DNA of 64,000 nucleotides from Clostridium brassicae (lineage in GTDB: Bacteria; Bacillota; Clostridia; Clostridiales; Clostridiaceae): assembly GCF_026738875.1 (NCBI RefSeq), contig NZ_JAPQFJ010000001.1:248001-312000 (forward strand), read 5' to 3'. Numbering within the stretch: position 1 is the first letter of the stretch; every line of letters starts with the position of its first letter. Shown piece by piece: positions 5,435 through 26,229 of the stretch. The notes beneath the pieces are model-generated. The model had not been told where the DNA came from. It did no database searches and saw only the letters and a program-made list of their open reading frames with translations. The translations under genes and the position numbers were made by a program.

Positions 5435-5613
5435 TGTTTATTAATCATATATTATATTTAATACTGTATATAAATACATACGAAGCATGGTTATTGTACG
5501 GGTTTTTTATTTGTAATACATGTTAAAATATATAAAATTATATGTTGAAATATATAAACACCTAGTGTATAATGTGTAATACAAACATTTAATAAAAAAT
5601 ACAAAAAAATGTT

Positions 5614-5683
5614 CGCTTATATAAATTTAGCAATATGGGCTAAAAGTTTCTACCAACTACCGTAAATAGTTTGGCTATAAGTG
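5614..5683 (+). promoter_or_regulatory. Purine riboswitch aptamer, guanine type
   Basis: All conserved parts of the purine aptamer are present: P1 (CGCTTATA/TATAAGTG), P2 with the ATATGGG-type loop, J2/3 GTTTCTACC, P3 (AACTA/TAGTT) with loop CCGTAAA, and J3/1 GGCTAT. The ligand-discriminating base is C (GGC before TAT), as in guanine/hypoxanthine aptamers, not the U of adenine aptamers. The 3' strand of P1 (5677-5685) can pair with the 5' arm of the downstream terminator (5713-5722) with one bulge. Ligand binding should therefore free the terminator and switch expression off. Confidence 0.92.
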
Positions 5684-5712
5684 TTTTATTGTCATGCATG
5701 TATGATGTATTT

Positions 5713-8042: not shown

Positions 8043-9323
8043 TTATAATTCCAGTCTTTCTATCCAAGGACTTTTCATGGATTCATGCCATAAATAGTTT
8101 AGATAGTATATGGAGTATTGTTTTTCTACATAATGATACGCAAATTGTCCAAATCTAGTTAGAAAAATTTTATTTCCTTTTTTAGTACACATTCTTAATG
8201 TCTTAAGAATTGTAAATAAAAGTTTGAATTCCTTTTCCATATCTTTATTAAATAATTCATAAAATCTATCTTTATCAATTATCCCATCATAGCATCTCCA
8301 AAATATCCAAAATATCATCTTTTCCCTAGATGTCATAGTATTTACTAGATTTATTGGAGGGGTTGGAGATTCTATTGAGTTACACTTTATATATTCATCT
8401 ACATTAAATGTGTTTAAATAAAAATAATTAGAAAAAAGAGAGCTAGCGCCTGCGCCTATTCCTATAAAACTTTCCCTGGTGACAGAGGTGTATCTGTTAT
8501 TTTCAGCTTTACCATATGTCCATATAGAACTTCTTTCATATCCATATTCTTTTGATACATTTTCAATTAGATTAAGAATTTTTTTCTCCCCAAATTCACT
8601 AAACCTACTTAACTTTTTTTCTTTTATAATTCTATCCATAGACGTCATAGGAAATATTATAAGTGGGTATATAGAAAGTTGATGAATGTTGTATGAATAA
8701 ACCTTTCTTAAATCATTTTCAATATCATCAATAGTTTGTCCAGGTATATTAGTCATAATGTCTACATCTACACATTTAAAATTAAACTTAATTATCTTTT
8801 CTAATGCATTTGTAGCTTCAGCTTTTTTATATCTTCTACCTAGGAAATTTAATTTATCATCATTAAAAGTTTGAATTCCTAAACTTATAAGGGTTATATC
8901 TGCAAGTTGTATTTTGTTTAAGAGTTCTTCTGTTACTTCTGTAGGATATACTTCTATCCCAACATCCCCATTAAAATTAAATTCTTTTTTTATAAAATCT
9001 AATACTTCTTTTATTTCATCAATTAAAAGAGTGGGGGTTCCTCCCCCTATATATATGGAAGAAATATTTTTGTTTTTTAAATGTTTCTTATAGAAATTGA
9101 GTTCATTTAGTAAAGCATTTTTATATTTTTCTACCTTTTCTTTTTCATAAACTACTTTATTATATGGACAATAAGGACAAATGCTTTTACAAAAGGGTAT
9201 ATGTATGTATAAACCTGTATTTTCCTCTATTTTATTAAAATCTACCATACCATTTTTATAGCCTTTAAATATAAATTTATCTCTCTTTTTAAGTATTAAC
9301 TTTCTAAATATATCTGTAATCAT
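8043..9323 (-). CDS. HemN/HemW-like radical SAM protein
   Basis: Protein of 426 residues related to oxygen-independent coproporphyrinogen oxidase and its relatives. It has YIHIPFCKSICPYCPY (CX3CX2C plus one more Cys), IYIGGGTPTLL for SAM binding and a C-terminal HemN-like domain. HemN, HemW and HutW/ChuW families share these motifs, so the reaction (porphyrinogen decarboxylation, heme chaperoning or heme breakdown) is not settled. No other heme gene is nearby. It starts 15 bases after the XRE gene and is co-transcribed with a second radical SAM gene. Confidence 0.78.
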   Translation of the reverse strand: MITDIFRKLILKKRDKFIFKGYKNGMVDFNKIEENTGLYIHIPFCKSICPYCPYNKVVYEKEKVEKYKNALLNELNFYKKHLKNKNISSIYIGGGTPTLLIDEIKEVLDFIKKEFNFNGDVGIEVYPTEVTEELLNKIQLADITLISLGIQTFNDDKLNFLGRRYKKAEATNALEKIIKFNFKCVDVDIMTNIPGQTIDDIENDLRKVYSYNIHQLSIYPLIIFPMTSMDRIIKEKKLSRFSEFGEKKILNLIENVSKEYGYERSSIWTYGKAENNRYTSVTRESFIGIGAGASSLFSNYFYLNTFNVDEYIKCNSIESPTPPINLVNTMTSREKMIFWIFWRCYDGIIDKDRFYELFNKDMEKEFKLLFTILKTLRMCTKKGNKIFLTRFGQFAYHYVEKQYSIYYLNYLWHESMKSPWIERLEL

Positions 9324-16401: not shown

Positions 16402-16475
16402 GTAATATTGAAACATTTTACAGGCTGTTGTATACTTATGTAGAAAAATTATACATAATGAAAGGAAAAAAACTA

Positions 16476-17984
16476 ATGAAAAAATCTAGAAATATTTCAA
16501 TTATAACTATGATTATTTTTACGTTTTTAATGACATTAATCCCAGTTACTAAAGCACATGCCATTATAACACAAAGTAATATGGATAAAGCCACATTACT
16601 AAGCAATGATAAAAGGGTATCTGAAACTTTAACTAATAAAAATTTTAGAGATGATAGAAAGTACTATAAATTTAATATGGACAAGGATGGTCGGGTTGAT
16701 TTAACAATAAGTCATGATAAAGCTTATTCTGATAAAACTTTATTAATAGAGTTATATGATGAAAATGGATATAAAATAAAATCATCTCAAACTAAAGGAG
16801 AAGAATACAGAAATACAACATATTTACCAAAAGGTACTTACTATATTTATGTTCTAAAATATGCTTCAATAAGTTCTGTAAGTTTTGATATAAAGGTTAA
16901 TTTAAAGTATGGAAATTATTATGAAAAAGAGCCTAATGGTTCTATAGAAACTGCTAATGATATAAATTTAGATACTAGTTATACAGGTACCAGTGATGAT
17001 TATTATGATGAAGATTATTATAAATTTTATATAAATAAGGATGGAAAAATTACAATAAATTTTTCTTATGATTTAGTTGAAGGAGTAGAAAAAGGAGTTT
17101 GGAGGATAAGTATAGAAGATACTTATGGAACTTTAATAAGTGAGTATATCACTAAAACAGATGATACTAGTTTTGAAAAAAACATATCACTAAGCAAAGG
17201 AACATACTTAGTAAAAATCAAGCCTTACTCTGGCAAAGGTGTAGATTTAAATTATTCATTAAAGCTTAAATTTTCTTCAGATAATACATATGAAAAAGAG
17301 CCTAATGATTCATTAAAATACGCTACACCAATTGATTTAAATAGAGAATATAATGGGTCCATATCCTCTAAATTAGATAATGATTATTATTCATTTGTTG
17401 TAGGAAAACCTCAACCAGTTGAAATCAAATTATATAATTACAATATAAAAACTAAGTACCCAACTCTTATGCAAATTAAGATAGTGGATGCTGCTGAAAA
17501 AGAAGTTGTAAATACTAGACTAGTTCCTGATTATCTTGACAATGTTTCTTATAAGGTAACATTAGATAAAGGGACATATTATGTTCATGTATTTTTGTTT
17601 CCTTTAAGCTATTTTGAGAATGATTTAGATTACTCTATAAAAGTAATCGGAGATTCATCTTCTTCAACTATCGATACAGAGGGATTTAAGTCAAAACCAA
17701 CTCAAACTAATATTTCACCAAATAAGACATGGGAAATTAATTTTAGTGGGGCATTAGATATTAAAACAATAACTGAAAAAAATATATATGTTTTAGATAG
17801 TAATAAAAATATAGTTCCTATGCTTTATGTATTAGATACTGTAAAAAATAATAAAATAAGTGTAACACCTGTTAAAAATTATAATAGAGGAGAAACATAT
17901 ACTTTATACATTAAAGATTTAAAATCAACTTCAGGAAAAGTATTAAAGGAAAGAACAAAAATGGATTTTGTAATTCAAAAATAG
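16476..17984 (+). CDS. Secreted PPC-domain protein with C-terminal Ig-like domain
   Basis: About 502 residues with a signal peptide (ISIITMIIFTFLMTLIPVTKAHA). Three pre-peptidase C-terminal (PPC) beta domains follow, two introduced by YEKEPN(G/D)S repeats. The last ~100 residues are an SbsA/Big_5-like Ig domain (FKSKPTQTNISPNKTWEINF to MDFVIQK). No catalytic domain is seen, so it is probably a binding or accessory surface protein. The same C-terminal domain type ends the M16 protease at 58314. ATG 16476 is chosen for its AAAGGAAA site and for a proper signal peptide. Confidence 0.78.
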   Translation: MKKSRNISIITMIIFTFLMTLIPVTKAHAIITQSNMDKATLLSNDKRVSETLTNKNFRDDRKYYKFNMDKDGRVDLTISHDKAYSDKTLLIELYDENGYKIKSSQTKGEEYRNTTYLPKGTYYIYVLKYASISSVSFDIKVNLKYGNYYEKEPNGSIETANDINLDTSYTGTSDDYYDEDYYKFYINKDGKITINFSYDLVEGVEKGVWRISIEDTYGTLISEYITKTDDTSFEKNISLSKGTYLVKIKPYSGKGVDLNYSLKLKFSSDNTYEKEPNDSLKYATPIDLNREYNGSISSKLDNDYYSFVVGKPQPVEIKLYNYNIKTKYPTLMQIKIVDAAEKEVVNTRLVPDYLDNVSYKVTLDKGTYYVHVFLFPLSYFENDLDYSIKVIGDSSSSTIDTEGFKSKPTQTNISPNKTWEINFSGALDIKTITEKNIYVLDSNKNIVPMLYVLDTVKNNKISVTPVKNYNRGETYTLYIKDLKSTSGKVLKERTKMDFVIQK

Positions 17985-17990
17985 AGGCAG

Positions 17991-18583
17991 TTCACAATTA
18001 TTTTTAGAAAAAATTACTAAGAATAATTGTGAATTGTTTTTTTATAAATGAACATAATAATAGCATAAGGAACATGACAGTTGAGTCAAGACCTATATAT
18101 GCTCTTAGGGTTTTGGGGTATATATGGGTCGGTCAAAGATTTTGTATAGGTCTATAGAGGCTTATATAAGGTCAGAGAGAAGATTTTACACTGTGGGGTA
18201 AAGCTTTATTATAGTGAATTTTGAAAAATAAATTCATTATAATGAGGTTGAAACTTATAGTGTAAGGTCGAGCTAAGATTATATGATGTATTGAAATAGG
18301 TTTTATAAGGTCGAAAGATTTTATAAAGTTTATGAGATATGTTATATAGTCGAGGAAACCATTAGTATAGGTTGTGACCTGCTTTATTATAGTCGGAAGA
18401 TTATAGTAAGGTAATAAGCTATCTATATTAGTGTAACTTAGATTGTTATGCTCTTTAGATGTAACATTAGTTTTGAAAAATTAAAAAATTTTACAGAACT
18501 AATATTATAAAACGAATGTAGATATATGTTCGTAAAGACCTAGAATCCCGATACTTTACCTCATAAAGTATCGGGATTTTCTT
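17991..18583 (+). ncRNA. Candidate large structured RNA, copy 1
   Basis: Gene-free unit nearly identical to 25402-25986. It begins with a conserved hairpin plus T run (17991-18045), which may also terminate the preceding gene, and ends in a terminator. Internal hairpins are a 14-bp stem at 18208-18243, TATAAGGTC-GAAA-GATTTTATA at 18304-18325 and TATAGTC-GGAA-GATTATA at 18388-18405, the last two with GNRA tetraloops. The element GGTC...GATT recurs in several other hairpins (near 18125, 18170, 18265). Toward the 3' end are stems TTAGTTTT/AGAACTAA and ACGAATGT/ATGTTCGT. Differences from copy 2 keep pairing. No sustained reading frame was found. I do not recognise the RNA family. Strand is inferred from the terminator. 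Confidence 0.72.
18544..18583 (+). terminator. Terminator of structured RNA copy 1
   Basis: Stem AATCCCGATACTTT/AAAGTATCGGGATT, 7-base loop, then TT and a short tail. The equivalent hairpin in copy 2 has a different sequence but the same fold. It may also stop convergent reading from the aminotransferase gene. Confidence 0.85.
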
Positions 18584-18602
18584 AAAAATTCATGTGAATT
18601 GC

Positions 18603-25095: not shown

Positions 25096-25401
25096 TTATA
25101 TTGCCCCCTGTAATTTGTTTTTTTATTTTGTAACTTATCTTTAGTTCTCTTTATGTATTAATTATATATTCTAAGTGTTTTAGCAACCATTGATTTGAAT
25201 TACATTTAGAGTTTTGTAACTTACGTTTTTGTAATAATGATGAAAGGTTATAATTATATAATCGGAATAGTGTATCAAGAGAAAAACAATAGAATAGTAG
25301 TAGTTCGCTATAAGTAACAAAAAGCAAAATAGAATAAGGGGAAGTTAACAAAAATCGGGTTTAAAAAAGAAATATAAATATAGAAGGTAATATAGAGATG
25401 T

Positions 25402-25986
25402 TTCACAATTATTTTTAGGGAAATTTACCAAAAATAATTGTGAATTATTTTTTTATAAATGAACATAATAATAGCATAAGGAACATGACAGTTGAGTCAA
25501 GACTTATATATGCTCTTAAGGTTTTGGGGTATATATGGGTCGGTCAAAGATTTTATATGGGTCTATAGAGGCTTATATAAGGTCAGAGAGAAGATTTTAC
25601 ACTGTGGGGTAAAGCTTTATTATAGTGAATTTTGAAAAATAAATTCATTATAATGAGGTTGAAACTTATAGTGTAAGGTCGAGCTAAGATTATATGATGT
25701 ATTGAAATAGGTTTTATAAGGTCGAAAGATTTTATAAAGTTTATGAGATATGTTATATGGTCGAGGAAACCATTAGTATAGGTTGTGACCTGCTTTATTG
25801 TAGTCGAAAGATTATAGTAAGGTAATAAGCTATCTATATTAGTGTAACTTAGATTGTTATGCTCTTTAGATGTAACATTAGTTTTTATAAGTTTAAAACT
25901 TACGGAAAACTAATATTATAAAACAAGTATATACTTGTAAAACCATAAATCCCAATACTTAGGAAACTGAGTGTTGGGATTTTTTA
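25402..25986 (+). ncRNA. Candidate large structured RNA, copy 2
   Basis: Second copy of the unit at 17991-18583, same orientation, 7.4 kb away. From about 25440 to 25885 I count seven single-base differences, all transitions. One turns the tetraloop GGAA into GAAA (25806-25809), keeping the GNRA class; others convert A-U to G-U pairs. At the 3' end the sequence diverges but hairpins remain: TTAGTTTT/AAAACTAA, ACAAGTAT/ATACTTGT, and terminator AATCCCAATACTTAG/CTGAGTGTTGGGATT (25948-25982) with T tail. The opening hairpin is also kept although no plus-strand gene lies upstream, so it belongs to the unit. The 300 bases before it (25096-25401) show no gene I can support. Confidence 0.72.
25948..25986 (+). 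terminator. Terminator of structured RNA copy 2
   Basis: Stem AATCCCAATACTTAG/CTGAGTGTTGGGATT with a 4-base loop and six T. Same fold as the copy 1 terminator, but with G-C replaced by A-U pairs. Confidence 0.85.
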
Positions 25987-26229
25987 TGAATTAAATTTTT
26001 TTAGTTTACAAAAATTTATAAAAGATAAATAACTATTTTACTTATATTGACATATATTGCAATGAACATTAAAATATATATTGTATTATATGAGTAAGTT
26101 TTAAGCTTCAAGTGGGGCTTTTTTAGGTTCTATCTGAGGCTTATACCCATTATATGGGATTTTAATATTAAGTATTCACGTATTAGTGGATATAGACATG
26201 AGATAAAATAAAGGTAAGGAGTGAACAAT

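Follow-up and report, generated by a model that had tools for sequence, protein, structure and literature searches.

It is rare to find a large structured bacterial RNA that has no known relatives. OLE is a large structured RNA of Bacillota, the raiA motif RNA (ModT, RF03072) is much smaller than the RNA described here, and CsfG, a noncoding RNA under forespore sigma control, is small, as are other sporulation sRNAs. According to passages of PMC11706538, OLE together with OapA forms a membrane-bound ribonucleoprotein, deletion of ModT impairs sporulation, and the abundance of ModT rivals that of rRNA in exponential growth. GOLLD and ROOL form homo-oligomeric, RNA-only complexes, as stated in an excerpt of PMC12286853. 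In a genome-wide scan for structured RNAs, several pathogenic clostridial genomes were judged much harder for the method used (excerpt of PMC6429828), and this difficulty is a possible reason why the family described here was overlooked. In the open-licence PMC literature we found no paper on a large structured RNA of Clostridia or Clostridium, and none of the matches listed there was a paper on the present RNA.

Here we describe an RNA encoded twice in the window, that is, in the whole 64,000-nucleotide stretch of DNA that was analysed. An earlier note on this DNA had reported a duplicated noncoding unit and proposed that it encodes a large structured RNA; we extended the analysis to homologues, consensus fold, genomic context and promoter. 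Neither the forespore-type promoter nor the standalone setting nor the regular arrangement of wobble pairs had been noticed there.

Results

Two copies of the RNA in the window

Both copies of the duplicated unit are present, as the earlier note had claimed. The features are located as follows, the core of copy 1 by the alignment of homologues mapped onto the window and that of copy 2 by the constant offset between the two copies:

17991 to 18043, plus strand: hairpin followed by a T-run, overlapping the −35 region of copy 1
18031 to 18059, plus strand: predicted sigma-G/F-type (forespore) promoter of copy 1
18067 to 18582, plus strand: predicted RNA copy 1, about 515 nt with estimated ends; conserved core 18067-18456, then variable 3' hairpins and terminator
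18067 to 18082 (5' strand) and 18441-18456 (3' strand), plus strand: closing helix P1, from the 75-sequence alignment
18083 to 18134, plus strand: arm 1, from the 75-sequence alignment
18138 to 18173, plus strand: arm 2, from the 75-sequence alignment
18182 to 18269, plus strand: arm 3, two helical halves with a symmetric internal loop between them
18277 to 18351, plus strand: arm 4, two helical halves; GNRA tip in 73 of 79 homologues
18360 to 18433, plus strand: arm 5, two helical halves; GNRA tip in 75 of 79 homologues
18459 to 18533, plus strand: variable 3' hairpins of copy 1; the copy 2 counterpart ends with a hairpin at 25923-25938
18546 to 18580, plus strand: intrinsic terminator of copy 1 (copy 2: 25949-25985)
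25442 to 25470, plus strand: predicted promoter of copy 2, with the same elements at an offset of 7411
25478 to 25986, plus strand: predicted RNA copy 2; core 25478-25867, placed by the constant offset of 7411 from copy 1

Between 18036 and 18474 the copies differ at eight positions, transitions only; the difference at 18036 lies upstream of the RNA and the remaining seven are inside the core, which agrees with the roughly seven core transitions counted in the earlier note. The tetraloop change that it had pointed out is that of arm 5, with GGAA in the first copy and GAAA in the second, and the pairing of the 3' hairpins and terminators is indeed kept in both copies though their sequences have diverged. 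Its view that no reading frame explains the unit also held within the window: neither 17985-18602 nor 25352-26220 is overlapped by an ORF of at least 60 aa that starts with ATG, GTG or TTG, and the changes track base pairing. The start of the unit at 17991 had to be revised: the hairpin there sits at and before the predicted promoter, and the RNA core begins near 18067. This hairpin probably belongs to the gene before it (ORF 16428-17984) as its terminator, was copied along in the duplication and would lie outside the RNA, as conservation among the homologues begins at the promoter.

Both copies are predicted to fold far more stably than shuffled sequences. For copy 1 (18040-18583) the folding energy was −202.8 kcal/mol versus −106.5 ± 5.9 for the shuffles (z −16.3), for copy 2 (25450-25986) it was −196.7 kcal/mol versus −104.4 ± 6.5 (z −14.3), and 0 of 100 shuffles folded as well as the real sequence in either case.

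Homologues across the phylum

By DNA search, six of the eight genomes of the genus, counting that of the window, have the RNA, and matches at E <= 1e-3 were obtained in 66 of the 206 genomes of the family, the weakest of them being short and possibly due to chance. A covariance model of arms 3 and 4 (R1; 21 sequences, 60 pairs) was built from the 29 non-redundant copies among 72, of which 22 were aligned and a misaligned partial copy (L073) was then dropped. R1 matched copy 2 at 25587-25767 with 129.3 bits. In the family it matched 71 of 206 genomes. The class sample gave 38 of 391 genomes, from 25 of 222 genera, and the phylum sample 79 of 299, from 60 of 215 genera; since searches over 40 genomes ran with stricter filters, by which weak matches are lost, these genome counts are lower bounds. 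The hosts include Acetivibrio, Desulfosporosinus, Pelosinus, Maledivibacter, Anaerosolibacter and Clostridium polyendosporum, with Pelosinus belonging to the class Negativicutes and Desulfosporosinus to the Clostridia. An R1 match of 99 bits (L264:6568-6779) lies on a contig labelled Bacillus sp. EB600, outside the Clostridia and Negativicutes, and may be contamination.

Many genomes carry at least two copies, some of them about 5-30 kb apart, and one genome has a tandem pair (L117:8001-8207 and 8522-8732), whose members are both almost complete as judged by profile. In genome G103, R1 gave eight matches at seven places, with five within about 33 kb on contig C16. Exact-pattern scans with the window's own 5' block gave no matches in genome and viral contigs, and blastn of copy 1 gave none in phage and plasmid records. 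A degenerate pattern detected 55 loci, 52 of which have an R1 match at E <= 0.01, weak in two of them (E ~0.001; L298 and the cut-off L295); the three loci that R1 did not match are L257, L274 and L286, the last being cut off by its end.

Consensus fold and covariation

We aligned 81 copies of at least about 109 bits, known duplicate loci excluded, and dropped two that were cut off; the weaker and more distant copies lie outside the resulting 79-copy alignment. Removal of four further rows for gaps or near-identity left 75 sequences for the covariation analysis (mean identity 69%, minimum 47%). Their consensus contains 148 pairs. These make up five arms and the closing helix P1, and in each of arms 3, 4 and 5 an internal loop joins two halves. 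The cells are canonical in 94.8%, and changes on both sides (double compensatory) occur in 121 of the 148 pairs. Covariation was assessed with a home-made analogue of R-scape, a G-test with APC whose null was obtained by reshuffling substitutions on the tree. With the 75 sequences, 35 of the 148 structure pairs were significant, and when all pairs were considered, 10 were significant and all 10 fell within the structure; the same test on an earlier, narrower alignment was weak, with one match over all pairs and 18 of 134 structure pairs. RNAalifold of arms 3-4 agrees with the consensus, with changes on both sides in 33 of 60 pairs.

The fold has a repetitive character. The linkers between the arms are alike, the commonest being GAGCUAA, GAACGAAC and GGAGGGAA, and the internal loop of arm 3 contains GAAA in 71 and CCAA in 69 of the 79 homologues. 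In many copies arm 5, too, is matched by the arm-4 part of R1 (18360-18433, with E 3.5e-5, is one example); arms 4 and 5 are thus related units and form an internal repeat. In the distant copies L118, L123, L124 and L280 (Pelosinus), single-sequence folding, the only method applied to them, gave several arms with GUCGAGC-type linkers and, in some, extra hairpins.

These results bear on two further statements of the earlier note. It had described a GGTC-loop-GATT hairpin repeated in the core, which applies only to arms 4 and 5, at their GNRA tips; in most of these elements GGUC closes one arm and GAUU opens the next, with the conserved junction linker between them. It had also read covariation from the two copies, which by themselves are insufficient as proof; the homologues found here prove it. 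A lack of covariation among further homologues had been one of three outcomes named beforehand as refuting the proposal, which withstood this test.

The RNA matches no Rfam family. With Rfam 15 at gathering score on the whole window, the models of ROOL, GOLLD, OLE, raiA and HEARO named in the earlier note included, the RNA had no match and hence no membership in these families above the gathering score. The sole gathering-score match in the window is a purine riboswitch at 5597-5697 (79.5 bits). Copy 1, searched with E up to 10, gave 17 matches, every one far under the family cut-off, and 20 homologous loci, searched at gathering score only, gave nothing at the RNA. At one of these loci, a TwoAYGGAY RNA match of 45.8 bits (cut-off 43) was located away from the RNA (L253:1513-1654, minus strand). 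With no Rfam match, phylum-wide homologues and extensive compensatory change, the proposal of a conserved large structured RNA outside known families stands, and it is nearly certain that the fold is real and that this is a new large RNA family.

A regular register of wobble pairs

Thirty-two of the 148 pairs are wobble pairs in half or more of the pairing sequences, and their arrangement is regular. Nine helices run without interruption over at least four pairs, and in eight of these a G.U stands exactly 9 bp after a U.G, a regularity reached by 0 of 20000 permutations. Furthermore, G.U and U.G are two apart seven times, and G.U to G.U spacing of 11 occurs four times; in arm 1, the corresponding U.G is present in only 44%. 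Read on both strands, the wobble unit is two-fold symmetric (U-N8-G). The strand of the RNA is fixed as well, since a conserved G.U would be A.C on the opposite strand. An excerpt of PMC8793689 describes an along-groove packing motif in which the G.U of one helix lies against a Watson-Crick pair of another, and it is this motif, taken with the wobble spacing, that led us to propose a helix bundle. We infer packing into a bundle from the wobble spacing alone, a spacing that a protein-bound scaffold would explain equally well.

Genomic context

We clustered the neighbouring ORFs (at least 90 aa, about 8 kb on either side where the contig allowed) of 61 loci. No ORF family was widely shared or at a fixed position beside the RNA in these 61 neighbourhoods; the largest cluster, from 17 loci, is a mixture at varying positions that resembles response regulators, sensor proteins and GGDEF/EAL proteins as judged by eye, and the next families comprise at most seven loci. 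A fixed same-strand downstream gene family, the mark of a cis-regulatory leader or riboswitch, was likewise not found. In the window, copy 1 is followed by an opposite-strand ORF, and copy 2 by the terminator and then a same-strand ORF at 26221. A terminator-like element (hairpin and T-run, dG <= −9) is present within 200 nt of P1 in 45 of the 78 copies used out of 79, compared with 2 of 78 in shuffles (one shuffle per copy), and the T-run lies at a median of 465 nt from the P1 start in copies with any such element. Because there is no fixed neighbour family and terminator-like hairpins are present, the RNA is most likely its own gene acting in trans.

Promoter and link to sporulation genes

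The predicted promoter of copy 1 consists of a −35-like GAATT (18031-18035), a 17-nt spacer and a −10-like CATAATA (18053-18059). Most homologues, with flanks otherwise unrelated, have an upstream G(T/A/C)AT(A/T), about 14 nt and a −10 region (e.g., GGTTATATTAATA, GCACATATTAATA, GAACATAATAATA) that ends a few bases before P1, and G[ACT]AT stands at the fixed −35 position in 28 of 40 family copies. Both hallmarks of sigma-F/G promoters given in a passage of PMC3789822 are found in many of the RNA promoters.

We derived a promoter matrix from 40 of the 72 RNA upstreams, after removing near-duplicates, L073 and L081, and, as an independent test, applied it to the upstreams of three types of forespore gene in relatives, namely SASP (30 loci, taken from 48 listed places), gpr (23, with L208 dropped by hand and L218 omitted as a repeat of a locus) and spoVT (24), with 391 upstreams as controls. 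The scores exceeded the 95% control level in 16/30 SASP, 5/23 gpr and 3/24 spoVT upstreams (Mann-Whitney p versus the 391 controls, 4e-9, 1e-4 and 0.03, respectively), and the 99% level in only 8/30, 4/23 and 0/24. A sigma-G/F regular expression, written after seeing the RNA promoters, matched 33/40 and 33/52 RNA copies; elsewhere it matched 4/30 SASP, 13/23 gpr and 6/24 spoVT upstreams and 9/760 controls, the forespore windows being 110 nt and the controls 70 nt long. Meanwhile, a sigma-A-type pattern occurred in 0/40 and 2/52 RNA copies versus 63/760 controls. The promoter type of the forespore (sigma-G/F) regulon is recognizable by sequence in most copies and is not universal. An ATTACCA- or ATTTCCA-like element is found directly before the −35 in many RNA copies, and a similar one before some SASP genes (loci L164 and L173); it is perhaps the binding site of a putative forespore regulator.

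A sigG-type gene accompanies the RNA; the definition used, TIGR02850 at E <= 1e-60, may include sigF as well. Such a gene is present in 37 of 38 RNA-bearing versus 256 of 353 other genomes of the class sample (Fisher 1.4e-4) and in 78 of 79 versus 174 of 220 in the phylum sample (Fisher 2.8e-6), the co-occurrence being matched by eye and the Fisher tests ignoring relatedness. The RNA-bearing exceptions are G536 and G862, which are 71% and 61% complete. Conversely, 256 of 293 sigG-type genomes in the class sample and 174 of 252 in the phylum sample have no RNA match, with weak matches lost to the stricter filters, and a genome of the same genus (G007) is also sigG-type without an RNA match. Most sigG-type genomes are without the RNA; therefore it is dispensable for sporulation in general and has a lineage-dependent part at most. 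From the promoter type and the sigG co-occurrence, we consider it quite probable that sigma-G and/or sigma-F direct transcription of the RNA in the forespore.

Discussion

We assign a probability of roughly 0.6 to the reading that this is a standalone, trans-acting large structured RNA of spore-forming Bacillota, made in the forespore and serving as a bundle or scaffold particle in the spore. In this mechanism, sigma-G and/or sigma-F would transcribe the RNA in the forespore. Its five arms and closing helix are built of repeated, wobble-bracketed helical units of roughly one turn. With the wobbles regularly spaced, every helix would present identical minor-groove features on a single face, so that the arms would pack alongside one another as a compact bundle, which may be oligomeric or protein-bound. 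While the spore develops or lies dormant, this particle would have a structural or scaffolding role; a role as an antisense regulator or riboswitch is not proposed. Action as a compact bundle or RNP in the spore is our best guess; for an RNA bundle or oligomer taken by itself, the odds are somewhat against it. The most specific form of this reading is a dedicated architectural RNA of the endospore, made only in the forespore, whose one-turn helices, bracketed by two-fold-symmetric wobble pairs, pack laterally, and which persists into dormancy as an RNA or RNP particle; this form is doubtful.

The same 9-bp wobble register in eight helices could also be read as a series of repeated sites for a forespore dsRNA-binding protein, giving a multivalent RNP without self-packing. 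The reach of a dsRNA-binding domain is about one helical turn, from one minor-groove feature to the next. However, no neighbouring ORF family is widely shared, although a partner could be encoded elsewhere, and the GNRA tips and symmetric internal loops suit RNA-RNA packing too, so we regard this version as rather unlikely. A regulator that acts in trans by pairing with forespore mRNAs would likewise be a standalone unit with a promoter-like element and a terminator, as observed, but it is quite improbable here: the core is almost wholly paired, its conserved unpaired parts are short junction linkers and loops, and antisense action needs no precise multi-arm geometry.

Two other explanations dispense with sporulation or with a cellular function. 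An ordinary growth-phase promoter, with the RNA unrelated to sporulation, would account for the −10 regions that partly read TATAAT in some copies and for the sigma-G/F fit not being universal; we consider it improbable given the near absence of the sigma-A-type pattern (0/40 and 2/52 copies vs 63/760 controls), the resemblance of the RNA promoters to the SASP and gpr upstreams and the co-occurrence with sigG. A selfish or mobile structured element multiplying in genomes might be suspected from the multiple copies in many of the hosts, some separated by about 5-30 kb and one pair in tandem. Against this stand the low copy number, the conserved promoter-like element and the phylum-wide compensatory evolution; in addition, no family among the (unannotated) ORFs extends beyond a minority of the 61 neighbourhoods, and copy 1 has no blastn match in phage or plasmid records, which makes such an element very improbable indeed.

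The RNA is present in 79 of 299 phylum-sample and 38 of 391 class-sample genomes, yet no Rfam 15 family matches it. If made in the forespore, it is a possible RNA component of bacterial spores. If its forespore expression holds, this would be the first large structured RNA known to us to be linked to the interior of the developing spore; it would also raise the question of whether spore maturation, dormancy or revival needs an RNA particle. Moreover, the regular spacing of the wobble pairs is a candidate rule for helix packing.

Large standalone RNAs are already known from bacteria; what is new is this RNA family together with its architecture of wobble pairs in register. In kind it comes closest to raiA/ModT, OLE, GOLLD and ROOL, and by the Rfam models it belongs to none of them. 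It resembles CsfG and other sporulation sRNAs in being noncoding and, as its promoter type suggests, under forespore sigma control, and differs from them in its roughly 148 conserved pairs and in having no Rfam match. With the raiA motif RNA it shares the character of a structured standalone RNA of Bacillota; it has no Rfam match to raiA and carries a forespore-type promoter, whereas ModT is abundant in exponential growth. OLE and the present RNA are both large structured RNAs of Bacillota, but the latter has neither an Rfam match nor a widely shared neighbouring ORF family. It is distinct from GOLLD and ROOL in lacking an Rfam match and, for copy 1, a blastn match in phage records, and like them it is a large, ornate bacterial RNA, for which, by analogy, assembly into a homo-oligomer would be a possible mode of action.
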